Source of the DNA: Streptomyces caniferus | GTDB lineage: Bacteria; Actinomycetota; Actinomycetes; Streptomycetales; Streptomycetaceae | NCBI RefSeq assembly: GCF_009811555.1 | Contig: NZ_BLIN01000005.1 | Span: 3,047,501 to 3,111,500 of the forward strand | DNA length: 64,000 nt | Direction of reading: 5' to 3' | Part shown: positions 3,745 through 55,749 of the stretch, piece by piece | How positions within the stretch are numbered: the stretch's first letter is position 1 | How the letters are laid out: every line of letters starts with the position of its first letter | Position numbers and translations under genes: made by a program | The notes under the pieces: generated by a model | Told to the model about the DNA's origin: nothing | Database searches by the model: none | The model's input: only the letters and a program-made list of their open reading frames with translations

Positions 3745-5064
3745 ATGCCGTCTCCCCAGGGAGCCACCCCGCACCCCCGCGTCAAGCTCGCCGTGGTCGG
3801 CGGCGGCTCGACCTACACCCCCGAACTCGTCGACGGCTTCGCGCGCCTGCGGGACGTCCTGCCGCTGGCGGAACTCGTCCTCGTCGACCCGGCGGCGGAC
3901 CGGCTGGAGCTGGTGGGCGGTCTGGCCCGGCGGATCTTCGCCAAGCAGGGGCACCCGGGCCGGATCTCCTGGACCTCCGACCTGGACGCGGGCGTCGACG
4001 GCGCGGACGCCGTACTGCTGCAACTGCGCATCGGCGGCCAGGCCGCCCGCCAACAGGACGAGACCTGGCCCCTGGAGTGCGGCTGCGTCGGCCAGGAGAC
4101 CACCGGCGCCGGCGGCCTCGCCAAGGCGCTGCGCACGGTCCCCGTCGTCCTGGACATCGCCGAGCGGGTGCGCCGCCGCAACCCCGGAGGCTGGATCGTC
4201 GACTTCACCAACCCCGTCGGCATCGTCACCCGGGCGCTGCTCGCCCACGGCCACCGGGCCGTCGGGCTGTGCAACGTCGCCATCGGCTTCCAGCGCAAGT
4301 TCGCCGCGCTGCTGGGGGTCTCCCCCGGCGAGGTCGAGCTGGAGCACATCGGCCTCAACCACCTCACCTGGGAGCGGGCGGTACGCGTCGGGGGCGAGGA
4401 CGTCCTCCCCCGGCTGCTGGCGGAACACGGTGACACCCTCGCCGGCCACCTGCGCATGCCCCGCCCGCTCCTCGACCGCCTCGGCGTCGTCCCCTCCTAC
4501 TATCTGCGCTACTACTACCAACACGACGCGGTCGTACGGGAGCTGCGCGGCACACCCTCCCGCGCGGCGGAGGTCGCCGCCATCGAGCGACAGCTCCTGG
4601 AGATGTACGGCGATCCGGCGCTCGACGAGAAGCCGGAGCTGCTGTCCCGGCGCGGCGGCGCCTTCTACTCCGAGGCCGCGGTGGCGCTCACCTCGTCCCT
4701 CCTGCGGGACGTCGGGGACACCCAGGTCGTCAACACGCTCAACCGCGGCACCCTGCCGTTCCTGCCCGACGACGCGGTGATCGAGGTGCCCGCGACCGTG
4801 GACTCGACGGGCGCCACGCCCCTCCCCGTACGCCCCCTCGAACCGCTGTACGCCGGGCTGGTCGCGCACGTCACCGCCTACGAACACCTCGCCCTGGAGG
4901 CCGCGCTGTGGGGCAGGGACGGCCGGAACGCCGACCGGTCCGGCGGGCGCGATGCCGTCTTCTCCGCCCTCCTCGCCCACCCGCTCATCGGCCAGACCGA
5001 CCACGCGGACCGGCTCACCGACGAGCTGCTCGCGCACAACCGGGAGCACCTCACGTGGGCCTGA
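3745..5064 (+). CDS. csnH: Family 4 glycoside hydrolase (CsnH-like)
   Basis: This 439-residue cytoplasmic enzyme has an N-terminal Rossmann motif (KLAVVGGGSTYTPELVDG, residues ~13-30). It also shows the GH4 signatures DFTNPVGIVTRA, the metal-site Cys region GLCNVAIGFQRK and GLNHLTWERA. GH4 enzymes use NAD and a divalent metal and cleave by oxidation and elimination at the sugar ring. Length fits the 6-phospho-glycosidase branch, but the substrate cannot be read from sequence; operon context suggests an imported amino-sugar disaccharide. It begins six bases after the permease and its last ten bases overlap the next gene, so it is translationally coupled to the kinase. Confidence 0.85.
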   Translation: MPSPQGATPHPRVKLAVVGGGSTYTPELVDGFARLRDVLPLAELVLVDPAADRLELVGGLARRIFAKQGHPGRISWTSDLDAGVDGADAVLLQLRIGGQAARQQDETWPLECGCVGQETTGAGGLAKALRTVPVVLDIAERVRRRNPGGWIVDFTNPVGIVTRALLAHGHRAVGLCNVAIGFQRKFAALLGVSPGEVELEHIGLNHLTWERAVRVGGEDVLPRLLAEHGDTLAGHLRMPRPLLDRLGVVPSYYLRYYYQHDAVVRELRGTPSRAAEVAAIERQLLEMYGDPALDEKPELLSRRGGAFYSEAAVALTSSLLRDVGDTQVVNTLNRGTLPFLPDDAVIEVPATVDSTGATPLPVRPLEPLYAGLVAHVTAYEHLALEAALWGRDGRNADRSGGRDAVFSALLAHPLIGQTDHADRLTDELLAHNREHLTWA

Positions 5065-43656: not shown

Positions 43657-44193
43657 TTGACTACCCCTTTCATACGTGCCTCATGGACCTCGATGCCGCT
43701 CTCGCCTCATGAAGCACGGCCGGCGCCATCGCTCGATCTGTCCTGGCGGCGGCCTTCGCAGTGCGCCGCGTCGCCTCCGGTGCGTACCGGGCCGCTTTCT
43801 GACCTCTGCTTTCCCGATAATTCAAGCAGTTCGAGAGTCTGCCCGGGAAGGCGCACAGTGCGGCGTCGGGAGCGGGCGGGGCATATTGCGACGCGAAATA
43901 CTATCACCATAAGAAAACGGTTGCGCATTACCGTCGGAAGAATTGACGGTAATGCGCAACGGGGCGCCAGGGTTTCGGCGGCAAGAATGTATCAGAAATC
44001 GCGGCGGTTCGGAATTGCGGCATCCGTTTGCGTGAAAAGAGGAGAGGGGTGAGGAAAGGGGAACGGGGTGATTTCGCCGGTGTTCCTGTACGGCCCGGGG
44101 TGGGCGAGGGCGGAGCGCGGGGCGGGCAGACGGACGCCCGGCGGGCTGGTGGACAGCCCGCCGGGCGGATGCGGTTCCCGATGGCCTACAGGG
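43657..44193. other. Spacer: ATP-binding protein promoter and PKS 3' region
   Basis: No gene is visible. 43657-43910 should hold the promoter of the ATP-binding gene. The strong terminator of the PKS operon is at 43920-43960, and about 230 bases of untranslated tail follow the PKS stop. Confidence 0.55.
43920..43960 (-). terminator. Terminator of the PKS operon
   Basis: A 16-bp perfect stem (GTTGCGCATTACCGTC and its mirror) with a nine-base loop; on the minus strand it is followed by CGTTTTCTTATGG. Unusually AT-rich for this genome. Confidence 0.85.
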
Positions 44194-47100
44194 CTAGTTC
44201 GCCGTCAGTTCCAGGCCCAGATGCTCGGCGATGCCGGCGGCGAGCGCGGCGAGGGTCGGGTGCTCCCAGACGAAGTTCCTCGGCAGGGAGATGGCGAAGG
44301 AGCGGTCGATGCGGACGCGCAGCTCCATGGCCAGGAGGGAGTCGAATCCCAGTGACTTCAGGGGCGTCTGCGGGTCGAGGGAGCTCTCCCCCAGCCGCAG
44401 CACGTCGCGGACGTGTCCGGCCAGATGCTCCTCCAGCGCCGCCCTTCTGGCCAGGCCGGGCGGCAGTGCCGCGAGCCGGGCCCGCATGTCCTCGGTCTCC
44501 TCGGCCTCGGGCGGTGCGGTCCGGTCCGGCGGCGCCTGTTCCGACACCTCGCCGAAGAACGGGAGATGACGGCCGGCGGGCGGGACCCAGGTGTCCGGCG
44601 GGCCGGGGATCACCCCGGTCTGCACCCGCCGGTGGGCCAGCAGCGTCCGCAGGGCCGCCAGGCCGTGGTCCGTGGGGATGGTGCGGTAGCCACGGCGGCT
44701 GAAGTCGGTGGCGACACCGATCTCGCCCCACGGCCCCCAGTTGACCGCGACCGTGGGCAGCCCCTGTGCGGAGCGCCAGGCCGCGAACCCGTCGAGCCAG
44801 GAGTTCGCCGCCGCGTAGGCGCCCTGGCCGGGGTTGCCCAGCAGCGAGGCCATCGAGGAGAACGCCGCGAACCAGTCCAGCGGATGGTCCTGGGTGGCGT
44901 GGTGGAGGTGCCAGGCGCCGACGACCTTCGGCATCCAGACCCGTTCCAGCTGGCCGTCGTCGACGTTGGTGATCACCGCGTCGTCCAGCACCATGGCGCA
45001 GTGCACCACCCCGCGCAGCCGGTACCCGTCGGTCACCGCGGTGGACACCAGCCGCCGGGCGACGTCCGGATCGGCGATGTCGCCCAGGACGACCGACACC
45101 TTCGCGGTTCTGCCGATCACCGTGGCGAGAGTCTGCGCGACGTCGGGCTCCGGGGCACTGCGGCCGTTGAGCACCACATGGCCGGCGCCGTGGGCCGCGA
45201 GCCATTTCGCCGTGGCCAGGCCCAGACCGCGCAGTCCGCCGGTGACGATGTAGGCGCCGCCCTCCTCCACGGGCATGTCCATCTCGGGCAGCACCGCGGG
45301 CGCTTCCCCGTCGTCGGGCACGGTCAGCACCAGCTTGCCGATGTGGTCGGCGGCCGCCATGGTGCGGAAGGCCGTGGTGGCCTCGGCGAGCGGATACTCC
45401 GTGCAGTGCAGGGGCTTGAGCCGCCCCTCCTCGAACGCGCCGAGCACCTCCTTCCACACCGTGGCGAAGGTGTCGGGGCGGTTGCGGTGCAGCTCGATCA
45501 GGTCGACGGTGCTCAGGGTGACGTTGTGCCGCAGCGGCAGCATGCCGAGCGGAGCGTCCGCCATGATGTCGCGCACCCCCAGCTCCACGAACCGGCCGAA
45601 GGGGCGCAGCGTCTCCAGGCCGGTGCGGATGGCCGCTCCGGACAGCGAGTTGAGGACGACGTCGACGCCCTCGCCGTTCGTCGCCTCGCGGGTGCGTTCG
45701 CCGAACTCCAGCGTGCGGGAGTCCATGACATGGCGGATGCCCATGCCCCGCAGATAGCGGCGCTTGTCCTCGCTGCCGGCCGTGGCCAGCACCTCGGCGC
45801 CCAGCAGCCGGGCCACCGCGATGGCCGCCAGACCGGTGCCGCCGGTGGCGGAGTGGATCAGCACCCGTTCCCCGGCGGCGAGCCGGGCGACCGAACGCAG
45901 CGCGTACCAGGCGGTCAGGAAGGCGATCGGGAGCCCGGCCGCGGCGACCGGTTCGATGCCGAAGGGGACGGGGGCGACCGCGTCGGCGGGGAGCGTCAGG
46001 AACGACCCGAACGCTCCGCCGCGCAGATCGACGGCGATCACCTCGTCCCCGACCTGGGGACGCTCCACCCCGGCGCCGACCGCGCTGACCACACCGGAGC
46101 ATTCGAAACCGATCCGGTAGCGGACGTCCAGGTCGCCGGGGAGCAGGCCCATCGCCGTGAGGACATCACGGAAGTTGAGGCCGGCGGCGGTGACCCGCAC
46201 CTCGACCTCGCCGGGCGCCGGCGCGCGGCGGCCGGTGACGGCGTACTCCAGGCTCGACAGATCGCCCAGCCGGCTCGCGCGCAGCCGGAAGCCGTCCGCG
46301 CCGTACCGCACGGTGCAGGGGGTGGCGGTCCGGTCCTGTCCGTCGTCCGGCACGGCGTGTTGCAGCCGGGCGACGTGCCGGCCGCCCGCACGCAGGGCGA
46401 CCTCGTCGTCGTCCGCGTCCGCCAGCAGCTCCAGGGCCACGTCCTCGGGGTCGGCGTCGTGCGGGTCGGCGTCCACCAGCACAGGCCGGACCTCGGGGTG
46501 TTCCAGCGCGGCGACCCGCAGCAGGCCGCGCACCGCGCTCTGCCCGAGATCGACCTCGTCGGCCGGCAGCACGCTGCGGGCGCCCCGCGTGACGACGTAC
46601 AGGCGCGGCGACGAGGAGGTGGCGGTGATCGCCTGGACGGCGCCGAGCAGCCGGCGGGTGCGCCACAGGGACTGCACCGTCGGCTCTCCGCCCTGGGCGC
46701 GTCCGCACACCAGGACCACCCCGCGCGGGGTTTCGAGGGTGGCGGCCAGGCGGCCGCTGAGGGCTTCGCGGAACGCGCCGAGCGAGGTGTCGTCCAGCGG
46801 GCGGTCCCAGACCACCGTGCGGGCGCAGTGGGAGCGCAGCGCGGCGGCCAGCGCCTGGGCCGAGCCGTCCGCTTCGCCCACGACGACCCAGCTCCCCGGC
46901 GCCCGGCCGCCGTCCGGCGCCGCACGGGGTGCGGACTTCCAGGCGATGTCGAGGAGCCAGTCGTCGACCTCCGGGGTCTCGCGCACGGCCCGCCGGGCGA
47001 AGCGCAGACCGTTGACGAGGAGGACCACGGCGCCGCTGTCGTCCAGGAGGCGCACATTGGCCACGATGGCCTGCGCGGTGATCTCGCTGACGTGCGCGTG

Positions 47101-50100
47101 GCAGTACACGGCGGTCGTGGGATCGCCGAGGATGCGTACCGCCTGCATGCTCACCGGCAGCACCAGCGCCGGGTCGTCCTCGCTGATCAGGGGTGCCACG
47201 GCGAGCTGGGCACAGACGTCGAGGAGGACGGGGTGGACCGGCAGGCCCGGCGGCGGGGTGCAGGCCTGGGGCGGTACCGCGACCTTGGCCCAGAAGCTGT
47301 CGTTGTGGCGGCCGGCGTGCAGTTCGAGGACACCGGTGAACGCCGGGCCGTGCTCCAGGCCGCGGCGGCGCAGGCTCTCGTAGAGCGCGTCCGGCTCCAG
47401 GCGCAGCGGATGGCGCAGGCTCATCGCGTCGACGGATCTCGGCCGCAGCTCGGGCCGTACGGTCAGCCGGTGCAGCACCGCGTCGGCCTGCACCTCCCAG
47501 TCGCCGCTCTCGTTCCGGGCGAGGATCTCGCAGTGCGCCCGGTCCGGTGCGGTCATCGTGACGGCGGTCGAGACCTCGGTGTCCGGGCCGAGCCGCAGCA
47601 GCTGGGTGAAGTGGACGTCGGTGACCTCCACTTCGTGCGGTGCCGCGCCGAAGACCTCGCAGGCGGCCGAGAGCGCCAGTCCGCAGTGCGCCGCCCCGGG
47701 GAGGACGGCGTTGCCGTGCACCCGGTGGTCGCCCAGCCAGGGCAGTGCCCCGGTGCCGGCGTCGGCACGCCAGCTGTGCCGCGCGGGTTCGCCGGGGAAC
47801 TCGGTGTGGTGGCCGGGCAGCTGGGCCCTGGGGGCGTCGGCGGCCTGCGCGGGCGGGGCGGCGTCGGCCCAGTGGTGGCGGCGGTCGAAGGTGACGGTGG
47901 GGGCGTCCACGAGGCTGCCCTCGCCGTAGAGGCGCCGCCAGTTCACCGGCACGGCGGCGCAGTGCAGCGCGGCGAGCTGGGTACGGAACGTGGCCTGCTC
48001 GTCCTCCTCGCGGCGCAGCGTGGGCAGGACGACGGGCTCCGCGACGAGCCCGGCCAGGCTCCGCTCGACGGAGTGGGTGACCACGGGGTGGGGCGAGATC
48101 TCGGTGTAGACCACGTGGCGGTCGGCCGCGGCGGCCGCCACCGCCTCGGCGAAGCGCACCGGGCGGCGCAGGTTGTCGCACCAGTAGTCGGCGTCGAAGG
48201 CCGGCGTCTCCCCGGCCTCGACGACCGTCGAGTAGAACGGCACCTTGGGCGACCGCGGATCCAGACCGGCCAGGGCCGACCGCAGGGCCGGCAGCACCGG
48301 GTCCACCAGCGGACAGTGCGAGGCGACGTCCACGGCGATCGGGAAGACCGGGATCTTCCGGGCCTCCCAGGCGGCGGCCAGCCGGCTCACCTCCGTGGTC
48401 CGGCCGGCCACGACGGTGGAGTCGGGCGCGGAGAGGACGGCGACGGACACGGTGTCGGCCGCGCTGTCCGCGAGTTCCGCCCGCACCGTGGCGGCGTCCA
48501 GGCCGACGCTCAGCATGCTGCCGGAGCCGGCGATGTCGCTCAGCAGTCCGGAGCGCCGGCAGATCACCCGGACCCCGTCGGCCAGTGTCAGCGCACCGGC
48601 CACCACCGCCGCCGCGACCTCGCCCATCGAGTGCCCGATGACCGCGGCGGGTTCGACGCCGTACGAGCGCCAGGTGGCGGCGAGGGCGATCTGCAGGGCG
48701 AACAGGACCGGCTGCACCGTGCCGCACCCGTGGACCGGCTGTCCGCGCCGCACCACGTCGAGGACGGAGACCTCGCTCTGCGCCTTGATCAGCTCGTCGA
48801 CCTCGGTCAGCGCGTCGAGGAAGGCCGGTTCGGTCCTCAGCAGTCCGCGCCCCATGCCGGGCCACTGGGAGCCCTGGCCGGAAAAGACCCACACCGGTTG
48901 CCGCTCCACGGCGGCGCCCACGGCGCCGGTCACGACCCCGGGGTTCCGCTGCCCGGACGCGAAGGACCGCAGGGAAGCCAGGAGTTCGCGGCGTGCGGAG
49001 GCCACCACGCCCAGCCGCCCGTGACCGGCGCAGCGCCGGAGGGCGAGAGTGTGCGCGAGGTCGCGCAGCGGCACGTTCGCGCCGTCGCCCTCCATCCAGT
49101 CCGCGAGCCGGGTGGCCGCGGCCGGCAGTACGTCGGGCGAGCCTGCCGACACGAGGAAGACCTCGGACGCCCCCTGGGCCGGCCGGCCGGGGCCCTGGTG
49201 ACGGACGGCCGGGCGGTCCGGGGCCTGTTCCAGCAGGACGTGGGCGTTGGTTCCCGAGAAGCCGAAGGAGGAGACGGCGGCCAGCCGGGTGACCGTCCTC
49301 AGGGGCCAGGCGGACAGCTCCGTGGGGACGAAGAAGCGGGTGCCCGCCGCGGAGATGGCCGGGTTCCAGCGCCGGAAGTGCAGGTTCGCGGGGATGGTGC
49401 CGCGCTGCAGGCACAGCACGCTTTTGATCAGTCCGGTGATGCCGGCGGCCGGTTCGAGGTGCCCGACGTTGGTCTTCACCGACGTCAGGGCGCAGCGGCC
49501 CGGTCCGTTGCCGTAGACCTCGGCGAGGCTGGCGAACTCGATCGGGTCGCCCACCGGGGTGCCCGTGCCGTGGGCCTCGACCATGCCCACGTCCCGCGGG
49601 TCGACGCCGGCCTGCCGGAGGGCCTCCTGGTAGAGGGCCGTCTGGGCGGTCACCGACGGGGCGGCCAGCCCTTCGGACGAGCCGTCCTGGTTGGTGGCCG
49701 AGCCGCGCAGCACCGCCAGGACCCGGTCACCGTCCCGTACGGCGTCGGAGAGACGTTTCAGCACCACGACGCCGCAGCCCTCGCCCCGTACGAACCCGTC
49801 GGCGCCGGCGTCGAAGGTCCGGCAGCGCCCGCCGGCCGACAGCATGCCCATCCTGGCGAAGGACCGGGTGATGCGCGGCTGGAAGCTCAGGGTGACGCCG
49901 CCGGCGAGCGCGAGGTCGCACTCGCCGTCGGCCAGCGCCCGGCGTGCCATGTGCACGGCCACCAGCGAGGAGGAACAGGCGGTGTCCAGCGCCACGCACG
50001 GGCCCTGCAGACCGAGCAGGTAGGAGATCCGGCCGGCCGCCACACAGTGGCCGTTGGTCAGGATCGACCCCTCCAGTTCCTGGGGATGCCCGGCCAGACG

Positions 50101-50547
50101 GTCCATGTAGTCGCTGTAGCTGATGCCGGCGAAGACGGCCGTCGGGGTGCCGTTCATCCGGTCCGGTGGCAGGCCGGCGTGTTCCAGGGCCTCCCAGGTG
50201 ACTTCCAGCAGCAGGCGGTGCTGGGGGTCCAGGACGTCGGCCTCCCGGCCCGCGACGCCGAAGAAGGCGGCGTCGAAGCCCGTCACATCGCGCAGGAAGC
50301 CGCCCTGACGGGGGGTCGGTGCCCGGCTCCCCGGTCCCGGGGAGTCGAGGGAGTCCTCCGGGACGAGGCGCCGGCGCTCGGCGGGCAGTTCGCCCACCGC
50401 GTCCCGCTCCTCGACCAGCAGCCGCCACAGGGCGGCGGGCGAGTCGGTGTCGCCGGGCAGCCGGCATCCCATGCCGATCACGGCGATCTGTTCCGTCTCG
50501 TGGGGGGGTCGCATCTCGGCTGTCGAGCCGTGCATGTCGTTGCTCAT
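44194..50547 (-). CDS. Fully reducing type I polyketide synthase, KS-AT-DH-ER-KR-ACP
   Basis: ATG 50547 (GGAG upstream; an in-frame start at 50586 is less likely) gives 2,117 residues. The order is KS ~21-440 (Cys191 in [11 protein letters not shown]; His326 [10 protein letters not shown]; His363 [10 protein letters not shown]), then AT ~555-860 (Ser640 in GHSMGEV). VASH at ~741 in place of HAFH suggests methylmalonyl-CoA. DH follows at ~925-1215 (HxxxGxxxxP at His941; [10 protein letters not shown]), ER ~1440-1740 ([15 protein letters not shown]), KR ~1760-1950 ([15 protein letters not shown]) and one ACP (~2040-2110; Ser2070 in LGFDSLL). All catalytic motifs look intact. There is no thioesterase, reductase or docking domain. 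A single fully reducing module with mycobacterial-style order may work iteratively to make a branched saturated chain. Confidence 0.93.
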
Positions 50548-50582
50548 CGGGTCTCCGTACGTGGGAGGTGATCTGCCCGTGG

Positions 50583-51917
50583 TCACACGGCTTCCGGACT
50601 GCCGAGGAGAATGGCGTTCTTCACGCCGCCGACCTGGTAGTTGAAGCTCAGCGCGTAGTCGAAGTCGAGCGGCCGCGGCCGCACGCCGGGGACGGGGTCG
50701 AAGGGCAGCCCGTCGGCCGGCTGCTCGCAGTTGGCGGTGGGGCAGACCTGCCCGCGCTCCATCATCATCAGCGTCATGGCGACGCCCAGGCAGCCGGCCG
50801 GTGCGCCGTTGTGGCCGAAGCAGCCTTCCTGGGACGTCATCAGCACGTCGCCGTCGGGCCCGTAGAGCTCCTTGATGGCGTTCGCCTCGAAGGCGGTGAC
50901 GACGACATTGCCGTCACTGCCGCCGTGCACGTACGGCACGTCGTCGATCCGCCAGCGGTCGCCGAGGCAGCGGCGGACGGCGCTGACGAGTTCCGCGCCG
51001 GTGTCGTCGCACGCGAGGGGGTTGGCCAGCCCGTCGCGGGTCATGGCGGTGGCCAGCACCTGGCCGTAGACGTGCGCCCCGCGCCGGGCGGCGTGTTCCC
51101 GGCTCTCCATGATCACGGTGGCCGCGCCCTCGCCGTGGTTGATGCAGTCCGCCCGGCGGTCGTAGGGCCGCATGAGGGAGGTGAAGGACGGCAGCAGTTC
51201 CGGCATGTCGGTGGTGCGGAGCGCGTCGTAGGTCTGCTGGGCCCCGCTCAGCAGCCGTTGGATGTTCTGGATGAGGTGGACGTTGAAGACGTCGACCCCG
51301 GTCACGACCGCGATGTCGACCTCGCCGTGGGCGATCATCCGCCGGGCGTTGCCGATCTGGACGGCGGACGAGGCACAGCCGCACGAGACGGTGTAGCAGG
51401 GGCCGTTGGACTGCGTCAGCGCCGCCTGCACCAGGGCGACATCGGACGGCGTCACGGCTTGTTGCGCCGCGACGAACAACTCCATGGCCTCCGGTGCGGA
51501 GGTTTTCCCGGGATCGGCACTCAGCACCGAAAGATAGCTTTCGACATTCGAGTCCACTCCCCCGCGGCCGACCAGAATCGCGGCTTCTCCCAGGGCGCCG
51601 CCGCAGAATGTCAGCCCGGCATCCGTGGTGGCCTCCGCCATCGACACCAGCCCGAATCGGTGCGCCGAGGTGTAATGCTGGGAGAAGAACGGCGGGACGT
51701 CCGGGAGGCGTTCGTCGAACATCTCCCGGGTGAGCTCGACCGAGCCGTAGTAGACCTCGTCACGCTTGAGGCAGGACCGGCCGTTGGAAACGACGTCCCA
51801 CATGTCGTCGGCGGTGAAGACCGGCTCCGTACGACCGGGCAGGCAGAATCCGACCCCGGTCACCACCACATCCCGGCCGTCGCTCCAGCTTTTGTCTTTA
51901 CCAGCTTCTCGGTTCAC
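50583..51917 (-). CDS. Stand-alone FabF-like ketosynthase
   Basis: GTG 51917 (GGAG seven bases upstream) gives 444 residues. The thiolase fold has Cys181 in VSCGCASSAVQ, His331 in YVHGGSDGNVVVT (usually HGTGTxxND) and His369 in GCFGHNGAPAGCLG, so the Cys-His-His triad is complete. The strand around VVVTGVGFCLPGRTEPVF is typical of type II KS/CLF. The HGGSDGN motif sets it apart from housekeeping FabF. It ends 35 bases before the PKS start. It may supply a starter or perform one condensation for the PKS; no ACP or malonyltransferase gene accompanies it. Confidence 0.88.
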   Translation of the reverse strand: MNREAGKDKSWSDGRDVVVTGVGFCLPGRTEPVFTADDMWDVVSNGRSCLKRDEVYYGSVELTREMFDERLPDVPPFFSQHYTSAHRFGLVSMAEATTDAGLTFCGGALGEAAILVGRGGVDSNVESYLSVLSADPGKTSAPEAMELFVAAQQAVTPSDVALVQAALTQSNGPCYTVSCGCASSAVQIGNARRMIAHGEVDIAVVTGVDVFNVHLIQNIQRLLSGAQQTYDALRTTDMPELLPSFTSLMRPYDRRADCINHGEGAATVIMESREHAARRGAHVYGQVLATAMTRDGLANPLACDDTGAELVSAVRRCLGDRWRIDDVPYVHGGSDGNVVVTAFEANAIKELYGPDGDVLMTSQEGCFGHNGAPAGCLGVAMTLMMMERGQVCPTANCEQPADGLPFDPVPGVRPRPLDFDYALSFNYQVGGVKNAILLGSPEAV

Positions 51918-51996
51918 GACTGGACTCCGTCCCTCATGAGGTTCAACATGGTCGTTCTCCTCTGCACATCGCTTTCTTCCTGGAGACGCACAGCAC

Positions 51997-52203
51997 CTAT
52001 TCGGCGATTCGTGTGCGGTAACACCAGCGATACACAGGGACCGGTTCTCCGCCCAAGTCCGCGTACTCGCCGTAGAATTCGAAACGCTCGTAGCCGTTGC
52101 CCCGCAGGATCCTTATCGGATCGCCCGCATTGTCGCGCGCGTGCTGCGGCAGGCCATTTCCCTCCGGCCCGTCGACGAGGATCACCATTCTTCGTTGCGC
52201 CAT
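51997..52203 (-). CDS. Small DUF5988-like protein leading the PKS operon
   Basis: ATG 52203 with GGAGGACAGC upstream gives 68 residues. The start MAQRRMVILVDGPEG is followed by ILRGNGYERFEFYGEY and PVYRWCYRTRIAE. It has no signal peptide or membrane span. The short beta-rich layout and the YERFE...YRWCYRT pattern match a DUF5988 family I recall beside Streptomyces biosynthetic genes. It is the first gene of the operon, 79 bases before the ketosynthase. Function is unknown; partner or accessory protein of the ketosynthase is a guess from position. Confidence 0.75.
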   Translation of the reverse strand: MAQRRMVILVDGPEGNGLPQHARDNAGDPIRILRGNGYERFEFYGEYADLGGEPVPVYRWCYRTRIAE

Positions 52204-53788: not shown

Positions 53789-54838
53789 ATGAACAAGGAC
53801 GCCGGGTCCCGGTTTCCGGGGGAGGCCGAGATCCTCACGATGTCGCTCGCCGACTACGGGGAACGGAGGTGGCCGGCCGCGATGCACGGCCTGGAGACCC
53901 TGACCATGTCCCCCTACCAGGCCGGGTGGCGGCTGCGGGTCGTTCCCAGCATCGGGCACGTCCTCGTCCGGAAGGTCACCCGCCGCGTGGTCAACCGGGC
54001 GCTGCACTGCTGGATCGCCGACGAATGCGGTCTGTCGACGGTGAAGAACAGCCTCGCCGTCCTCGTCCGGGTCCTGGAACAGGCGGTACGGGACGGGGTG
54101 CTCGACGCCAATCCGGCCCGGGTGGCCGGCTGGCAGCAGGAGTACCAGCGTGCGCAGAGCGAACGCACGACTCCGCGGGCGCTGGCCCTGCCGGACGTGC
54201 AGGCGCTGGAGCGGCTGGCGGCCACCCTCGTCCAGCGGTCCTCGGACGGCTATGCGGGGTGGGGCGACATCGTCCGGTTCGCCGCCTGGACCGGTACCCG
54301 CTTCAGCGAGGTGTCCGCCCTGCAGGCCCAGGACATCGACATGGGCACCTGGACCTGGCAGGTCCAGCGCTTCACCGTGTCCGCGCCGGCGGGCCTGGAC
54401 GACCGTGCCTGCCGGGGCCGGCACCAGCGGGTGGTGCCGCTGCGTCCCGCCGCGCGGGAACTGGCGGCCGGCCGGCTGGAGGCGGCGCGGCACACTCCCG
54501 TGGCCCGGCTGTTCACCGGTCCGCACCGGAGCCGGTTCACCGCCGCGGCGCTGCGGGACACGACCCGCTGGGACGATGTGGTGGCCGAACTCGGTCATGA
54601 GTACCTCCGACGCCAGGATCTGCGCCACACCGGCCTGACGTGGATGGCGGACGCCGGGCTTCCGTTGCCGTTGCTGTGCGGCGCCGCCGGGCGCCCTCCG
54701 CAGGACGCCCGGCGGTACCTGCCCCCTGACGGGCCGGTGCGGTCCGCGGAGCGCCCTGGGGAGCCACCGGCGAGTTCGGCCCCCGCCCGTACGACGGGCG
54801 GGGGCCGAACCGCTTTCCGGCGTCCCCCCGCGGGGTGA
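53789..54838 (+). CDS. Atypical tyrosine recombinase/integrase
   Basis: ATG 53789 gives up to 349 residues. An N-terminal SAM-like region (~20-110) is followed by a catalytic domain: Arg171 in AAWTGTRFSEVSALQ, Arg279-His280 in RRQDLRHTGLTWMADAG and a candidate nucleophile Tyr310 in DARRYL. The first His of the HxLRH box is Gln276. The usual GH before the Tyr is replaced by CGAAGR. Substitutions of this kind suggest weakened or altered activity. A 16-bp hairpin lies inside the last 21 codons, so the C-terminal tail may be extended by mutation. No attachment site or element genes were found beside it. Confidence 0.72.
   Translation: MNKDAGSRFPGEAEILTMSLADYGERRWPAAMHGLETLTMSPYQAGWRLRVVPSIGHVLVRKVTRRVVNRALHCWIADECGLSTVKNSLAVLVRVLEQAVRDGVLDANPARVAGWQQEYQRAQSERTTPRALALPDVQALERLAATLVQRSSDGYAGWGDIVRFAAWTGTRFSEVSALQAQDIDMGTWTWQVQRFTVSAPAGLDDRACRGRHQRVVPLRPAARELAAGRLEAARHTPVARLFTGPHRSRFTAAALRDTTRWDDVVAELGHEYLRRQDLRHTGLTWMADAGLPLPLLCGAAGRPPQDARRYLPPDGPVRSAERPGEPPASSAPARTTGGGRTAFRRPPAG
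54775..54809. terminator. Hairpin inside the 3' end of the recombinase frame
   Basis: A 16-bp perfect stem TTCGGCCCCCGCCCGT with a three-base loop. It sits where the convergent recombinase and IPT genes should terminate. Confidence 0.65.
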
Positions 54839-54936: not shown

Positions 54937-55749
54937 TCACAGGTAGGTGAACGACCCGGCGTTGGCGCTGCCGGCCGCGGTCTGGACGGTCACCTGCACC
55001 GTCGAGCCGACCGTGCCCGGCGGGACGGTCCCGGTCAGGGACGTGCCGCCCGCGTTGACCACCACGCCGGTGGCCGGTGCGGCCCCGAAGAGCACGGTGG
55101 CTCCCAGGAGACCGGTCCCGACGATGGTGAACGTGGCGCCGGCCGCCGCCGAGGACGGCGACACCGTTCCGGTGACCGTCGGAGGCGCCGCCAGGTAGGT
55201 GTACCCACCGGGGACGTTGGTGGTGCCGCCCGGGGTGGTCACCACGACCGGGACGTTGCCTCCTGCGGGGGGTCCCGCGGGAGTGACACCGAACAGGACG
55301 CTGCCGGAGAGGTCCGTGCCCACGACCGTCGCGGCGTTGCCCCCGATGGTGACACTGGCCCCCTGCAGGCCGGAGCCGACGATGACGAAGGACGTGCCGC
55401 CCGCAACCGGCCCCGAATTGGGGGTGATGACCGCGGCCGTCGGCGGGCCGGACTCCACGTACACGTACGTCGCCGGGTTGCTGGTACCGCTGCTGGTGGT
55501 GACGGTGACCTGCACGGCGCCCGCGGCGTGTGCCGGGGCGAGGACCGTGACGGTCAGCCCCAGCGGGTCCTGGCCGACGACGGTCGCCGTCGACGTCCCG
55601 AAGAGGACGTTGGTGGCGCCGCCGAGGCCGAGCCCGATCAGCTGGACGGTGTTGCCGCCCGCGGTCGGCCCCGAGCTCGGTACGACGCCGAGCAGCACGG
55701 GCCCGAAGGGCAGTGCCGGAAGGGCCGGGTGGATGGTGGGTGTGGACAT
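54937..55749 (-). CDS. Three-domain IPT/TIG repeat protein without export signal
   Basis: ATG 55749 with AGGAGGACCTCC upstream gives 270 residues. Three Ig-like IPT/TIG units begin GVVPSSGPTAGGNTVQLIG, ITPNSGPVAGGTSFVIVG and VSPSSAAAGATFTIVG, each ~80 residues and ending TYVYV, YTYL or FTYL. The N-terminus MSTPTIHPALPALPFGP has no signal peptide, and there is no anchor. Such units are normally in surface or phage-tail-like proteins, so the export route is unclear. It converges on the recombinase gene. Confidence 0.85.
   Translation of the reverse strand: MSTPTIHPALPALPFGPVLLGVVPSSGPTAGGNTVQLIGLGLGGATNVLFGTSTATVVGQDPLGLTVTVLAPAHAAGAVQVTVTTSSGTSNPATYVYVESGPPTAAVITPNSGPVAGGTSFVIVGSGLQGASVTIGGNAATVVGTDLSGSVLFGVTPAGPPAGGNVPVVVTTPGGTTNVPGGYTYLAAPPTVTGTVSPSSAAAGATFTIVGTGLLGATVLFGAAPATGVVVNAGGTSLTGTVPPGTVGSTVQVTVQTAAGSANAGSFTYL

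Follow-up and report, generated by a model that had tools for sequence, protein, structure and literature searches.

A ketosynthase-like protein without the condensing residue set, paired with a mycocerosic acid synthase-like polyketide synthase in Streptomyces caniferus

The window, i.e. the whole stretch of 64,000 bp of Streptomyces caniferus DNA that was analyzed (contig NZ_BLIN01000005.1, positions 3,047,501 to 3,111,500), contains a conserved two-enzyme core that consists of a stand-alone ketosynthase-like protein (lone KS) and a type I polyketide synthase (PKS) resembling mycocerosic acid synthase (MAS). As judged from the aligned sequences, the lone KS lacks the residue set of a condensing enzyme, in that the first catalytic histidine is absent and the lysine is exchanged for glutamate. 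We lean, by a small degree, toward a function in which a saturated acyl chain with methyl branches is built by the core and then moved off the synthase, unextended, by the lone KS. What is new here is that a synthase of known type is paired with a free-standing KS0-like protein, a combination that is undescribed within the literature searched: no description of the KS-synthase pair or of the operon was found in titles and abstracts among the literature matches listed, in agreement with the initial annotation, which had not recognized a described pathway, and no paper with the term DUF5988 was found in the literature search.

Operon organization

Three co-directional genes on the minus strand, for a DUF5988 protein, the lone KS and the synthase, lie within positions 44194-52203 (Table 1), as proposed in the initial annotation; the DUF5988 membership of the small protein passes the PF19450 cut-off. 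Also as proposed, no thioesterase, ligase, tailoring enzyme or transporter is encoded among the three genes according to Pfam.

Table 1. Predicted features of the operon and of its surroundings (positions in the window)
Feature	Position	Strand	Remarks
DUF5988 protein, 68 aa	51997..52203	-	PF19450, E 4.8e-19, 68.5 bits (gathering score 27)
Lone ketosynthase-like protein, 444 aa	50583..51917	-	Pfam ketoacyl-synthase N (E 2e-16) and C (E 2e-11)
Lone KS, Cys181 codon (= FabF Cys163), predicted nucleophile	51375..51377	-	Cys in 158/158 rows
Lone KS, Gly333 codon at the FabF His303 place, inside HGGSDGN	50919..50921	-	His in 0/158 rows
Lone KS, Glu364 codon at the FabF Lys335 place	50826..50828	-	Glu in 157/158 rows
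Lone KS, His369 codon (= FabF His340)	50811..50813	-	His in 158/158 rows
MAS-like type I polyketide synthase, KS-AT-DH-ER-KR-ACP, 2117 aa from ATG 50547	44194..50547	-
Synthase KS domain	49225..50493	-	canonical Cys-His-Lys-His
Synthase AT domain	47953..48894	-	GHSMG/VASH as in mycocerosic acid synthase
Synthase DH domain	46993..47787	-
Synthase ER domain	45319..46275	-
Synthase KR domain	44725..45258	-	LDD motif and Ser-Tyr-Asn kept
Synthase ACP domain	44236..44424	-	nothing after it
G+C-rich hairpin, 14 bp, 3' of the synthase	44135..44167	-	fold z -2.64 vs shuffles
IPT/TIG-repeat protein, recurrent operon neighbor	54937..55749	-	PF01833, 3 stretches
Phage-integrase-family gene beside the operon	53789..54838	+	PF00589

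For the synthase, an alternative start at GTG 50586 overlaps the stop codon of the lone KS gene; the start is more likely at ATG 50547, because this codon is preceded by GGAG with a 5-nt spacing and agrees with the start assigned in a relative (locus L001; MSND). A short open reading frame with a good ribosome site (51949-51914; 11 codons plus stop) overlaps the start codon of the lone KS gene. A similar frame is present at the KS start in L001, L002, L004 and L005 and absent in L006 and L007; a coupling leader is one possible reading, chance another.

A strong terminator had been assigned downstream of the synthase. A hairpin is indeed predicted there, but it has no T-run (44167-44135) and was not listed by the terminator scan, which needs one; the hairpin is a possible transcript end.

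The polyketide synthase

KS, AT, DH, ER, KR and ACP domains were identified by Pfam in one protein, and no domain follows the ACP, which bears out its description as a fully reducing PKS without release domain. The closest solved relatives of the synthase are mycocerosic acid synthases (best PDB match, 1535 bits). MAS is also the best PDB match of the AT domain, with GHSMGE and VASH common to this domain and the MAS entries, in support of the methylmalonyl-type AT motif reported initially. The synthase was aligned as the window sequence plus 37 relatives, all from one gene cluster and with copies split by the gene caller excluded (e.g. L020 and L035). The KS Cys-His-Lys-His, the AT Ser and His, the DH Asp, the ER glycine checked, the KR Ser-Tyr-Asn and the LDD residues checked are kept in 38/38 sequences, and the DH His and the ACP Ser in 37/38 (one X, one gap); the AT motifs GHSMG and VASH were found in 37/38 and 38/38 sequences, respectively. 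The initial claim of intact catalytic residues throughout the operon therefore holds for the synthase motifs of these 38 sequences, but not for the lone KS, in which the counterparts of FabF His303 and Lys335 are absent. The synthase sequence is split into several fragments in L020 and L035, attributable to sequencing error, gaps or decay.

The domain order, the sequence relation over the full length, the GHSMG/VASH motifs and the absence of a release domain after the ACP are shared with MAS and Pks2 of mycobacteria. In contrast to these, the synthase stays below the equivalog cut-off (2400) of its best NCBIfam model (Pks2, NF041183; 1871.2 bits), it has a lone KS-like partner, and its operon contains neither a FadD-type ligase nor a PapA-type acyltransferase; in mycobacteria, separate FadD and PapA proteins start and end the chains alongside MAS/Pks2-type synthases.

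Active site of the lone ketosynthase

The lone KS family was aligned with E. coli FabF, four KS or chain-length-factor (CLF) proteins of the same genome and the synthase KS domain as references. Its 158 rows comprise 120 proteins of 400-485 aa (those listed among 324 matches, the KS of the window included) and 38 called locus genes of >380 aa; 155 of these rows are distinct, and 151 remain once repeats and rows lying wholly within another are removed. In the rows aligned, the first His, Lys335 and the GFGG gating loop of elongating ketosynthases of the FabF/FabB type are not found: at the Lys335 place there is no Lys (0/158), and Glu (157) or Arg (1) instead, and the loop is replaced by a YQVGG-like sequence. 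The HGGSDGN motif, which had been noted as unusual, is the footprint of the loss of the first histidine. The Cys and the second His are invariant, which argues for an active enzyme, and the AF2 model (pLDDT 88.9) has a FabF-type fold, with FabF/KAS-type structures among the matches listed.

The HGTGT histidine is required for decarboxylative condensation, and KS domains that lack it are expected to be non-elongating (KS0), with release or transfer suggested as their role (PMC4661987; excerpt). By this criterion, the lone KS resembles the KS0 domains of multimodular PKSs, since its Cys is kept and the HGTGT histidine is absent; it differs from them as a separate 444-aa protein that is paired with one synthase, and by the exchange of Lys335 for Glu as well. 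An entry for FabF K335A with covalently linked dodecanoic acid (PDB 2GFY, entry title) indicates that an acyl-enzyme can form at the Cys without this Lys. The GFGG loop is described as a gate that orders transacylation and condensation (PMC7138838; excerpt), and such a gate would be dispensable in a non-condensing protein. In the DEBS ketosynthases, which use methylmalonyl units, Phe400 is replaced by Val or Ile according to that excerpt. Val/Ile is found at this place also in the lone KS family; however, the synthase's own KS domain has Phe, and Val/Ile is therefore not diagnostic of branched chains. From the residue pattern as a whole, acyl transfer without condensation is a probable activity of the lone KS.

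An ordinary condensing enzyme, in which His331 of the HGG sequence replaces His303, is very improbable: His is present there in 138/158 rows, but Asn in 18 and Arg in two (among distant relatives, Asn in 15/16 and Gln in 1/16), and Lys335 is absent and the GFGG gate changed in addition. The absence of two residues of the elongating set would also fit a synthase partner with a purely structural, non-catalytic role, comparable to a CLF. We give this reading hardly any credence, for the Cys and the second His are kept in 158/158 rows, whereas in the CLF control from the same genome Glu stands in place of the Cys and Arg in place of His340.

A KS fold that serves for chain release and not for condensation, as is proposed for the lone KS, is represented by the CalA3 KS of calcimycin synthesis, which releases its chain by amidation (C-N bond formation); this KS keeps His332 and Lys367, and either mutant lost amidation (PMC10006239; excerpt). 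CalA3 is an assembly-line module, and its Cys-His-His and Lys are kept. Since CalA3 needs the His and the Lys, a releasing KS need not resemble the lone KS, and the analogy is a loose one. The AmcF-AmcG KS-CYF of cispentacin synthesis is likewise a small non-canonical KS system, but performs true C2 elongation on a discrete ACP (PMC10698177; excerpt); the lone KS scores 97.6 bits against the AmcF model (cut-off 325), a weak match.

A second group of KS with 41-52% identity was found in 12 sampled genomes (loci L112-L123). The clusters contain further KS/CLF-like genes, KAS III-like genes and SDRs, and many also contain genes for a CoA transferase, a CocE-like hydrolase and an AMP ligase (assigned by Pfam for two genes of L112, and read by eye for the rest). 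The pattern of Cys, no His303, Glu and His was found in 16/16 distant relatives aligned, and it therefore probably predates the association with the synthase. A QEAxFGH motif is likewise present in the neighboring CLF-like protein of L112-L119. The glutamate, in 157/158 rows and in all 16 distant relatives, and the occurrence of the latter in clusters rich in thiolase-fold genes would also be in line with a non-decarboxylative condensing or cyclizing enzyme akin to OleA or HMG-CoA synthase, in which Glu364 would deprotonate an alpha-carbon and the synthase product would be coupled to another acyl chain. The FabF/KAS type of the listed structure matches speaks against this reading, which we regard as quite unlikely.

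Distribution of the pair

A scan of genome contigs by exact peptides, which reaches close relatives only, revealed 41 homologous loci, far beyond chance. The KS and synthase genes adjoin on one strand in 40 of them, and the contig of the remaining one ends just after the KS gene. Of the 392 Streptomyces genomes sampled, 32 have the core KS (at least 65% identity) and 34 the synthase (DH-ER stretch as query; E 1e-60 or better), including all 32 KS genomes; the two extra genomes have weak matches (38 and 37% identity) and no core KS. Across 35 loci, the divergence of the KS between two loci correlates with that of the synthase (r 0.74; species kinship ignored), with the KS more conserved (mean divergence 0.28) than the synthase (0.34). 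Relatives were also found in Kitasatospora, Streptacidiphilus, Actinocorallia and Asanoa. The initial view of the set as a minimal pathway, with the lone KS as a candidate for loading or release, gains support from the occurrence of the pair in the same 32/392 genomes and from the conserved residue pattern, which speaks against condensation.

The KS gene precedes the synthase gene in 40/40 loci that show both, the three genes include no acyl-CoA ligase or loading domain, and the residue pattern fits transfer without condensation in either direction. These points favor a lone KS that loads the synthase with a starter acyl group from the fatty-acid-synthase ACP, the product being released by hydrolysis or by another enzyme of the genome. 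We consider such a loader doubtful, for it leaves release unexplained in an operon without thioesterase, and an iterative synthase can often be primed by its own KS domain.

The DUF5988 protein

The AF2 model of the DUF5988 protein (pLDDT 78.7) consists of strands throughout (predicted all-beta). By profile search in six frames, DUF5988 was found in 30 of the 41 loci (28 upstream, two downstream) and was not found in the operon of the other 11, which comprise eight loci labeled as S. violaceusniger-type, L037, and two Asanoa loci, one of these (L041) without upstream sequence. In L031, tblastn gave a weak match just upstream (29 residues, E 0.002) that is absent from the profile search at E<=1.

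Among the 392 Streptomyces genomes, 169 contain DUF5988. All 32 pair-bearing genomes hold at least one copy somewhere, compared with 137 of the 360 genomes without core KS (Fisher p 3e-13, a value that is partly trivial, as the operon usually carries DUF5988, and that ignores relatedness). Two genomes, G372 and G360, have a single match each, about 40 kb from the KS; the one in G372 (L124, about 4189-4383) follows a regulator-like gene. A second copy is present in the S. caniferus genome (G000:C2:1082127-1082324). This copy and the 30 best-scoring others, i.e. not a random sample, were viewed and lie mostly in unrelated contexts; the copy in L057 adjoins a thioesterase-like gene.

Hence, with DUF5988 in 30/41 operons only and the other copies viewed mostly in unrelated contexts, the protein is likely an accessory factor in the operon; it may act in trans, given that all 32 pair genomes have a copy. 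The 68-residue protein had been named as a candidate for loading or release; a defining role for it is not supported, in light of the 11/41 operons in which it was not found and the 137/360 genomes that hold it without core KS. Of DUF5988, KS and PKS, whose co-occurrence had been suggested as a check, KS and PKS occur together (same 32/392 genomes), and DUF5988 is present in 30/41 operons. As a sole loader or releaser, the protein was rejected as a required part of the operon, since it was not found in 11/41.

Neighboring genes and plasmids

The KS was found on 22 plasmid records (21 Streptomyces, one Kitasatospora). In the seven annotated plasmid loci viewed (L129-L134 and L138), an IPT/TIG-repeat gene is near in 7/7, and genes for DNA primase, PrimPol or DnaB helicase are near the KS in 6/7. 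A gene of the TIG cluster flanks the operon in 22/41 cases (40 loci plus the window; L041, with no called KS, is left out), and the link of IPT/TIG-repeat proteins to the operon is real as a neighborhood. The 61 TIG domain matches of the S. caniferus genome (9.1 Mb) fall at about nine sites, and a signal-peptide-like start was recognized, by a crude pattern, in 2 of 39 called TIG proteins. The integrase gene cluster represented beside the operon occurs in 8/42 cases (41 loci plus the window, the window being one of the eight).

An AMP-binding-enzyme gene flanks the operon upstream, on the opposite strand, in 7/41 loci, all of the S. violaceusniger type (L016, L017, L020, L021, L024, L025 and L033; two of these genes were tested for the assignment). 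It lies behind an arginine-catabolism-like block with a class-III aminotransferase and an arginine-deiminase-like protein. Beside it, a chorismate-binding/glutamine amidotransferase fusion (one tested) is encoded in six of the seven loci, L020 being the exception. In L130, an Acyl_transf_3 gene is located some 6 kb past the synthase. L005-L008 and L012 have a glycosyltransferase-like gene close to the operon, with an EryCIII-like C-terminal domain in the one tested; a glycolipid is a possibility for the product at these five loci.

Proposed function

By its similarity to MAS, the synthase would iterate with methylmalonyl-CoA, each unit being fully reduced. The lone KS would then take the chain from the ACP onto Cys181. 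Because His303 and Lys335 are absent, decarboxylative condensation would not be expected, and the acyl group would pass to a nucleophile instead, probably with Glu364 as general base and His369 as helper. The direction of this transfer would be release to an acceptor (alcohol, amine or water) rather than starter loading, a preference to which we give an even chance. The DUF5988 protein would be a small accessory factor in this scheme. The AMP-binding gene in the flank of 7/41 loci, by which a ligase is possible there, counts against this scheme.

More tentatively, and with lower confidence than for the transfer itself, the lone protein may found a new Cys-Glu-His class of the ketosynthase fold that offloads, or non-decarboxylatively joins, polymethyl-branched lipids from a dedicated one-module synthase, and the pair may represent a plasmid-spread lipid pathway of Streptomycetaceae that is linked to IPT/TIG-repeat proteins.

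Significance

The pair bears on the question of how fully reducing bacterial synthases of one module that lack a release domain start and end their chains. It offers a small, testable system with a ketosynthase-fold protein of consistently unusual active site, in 32/392 Streptomyces genomes. Should chain release be the role of the lone KS, branched-lipid engineering would gain an offloading part that is ready for use. The pair would also extend the known cargo of linear Streptomyces plasmids to lipid synthesis.
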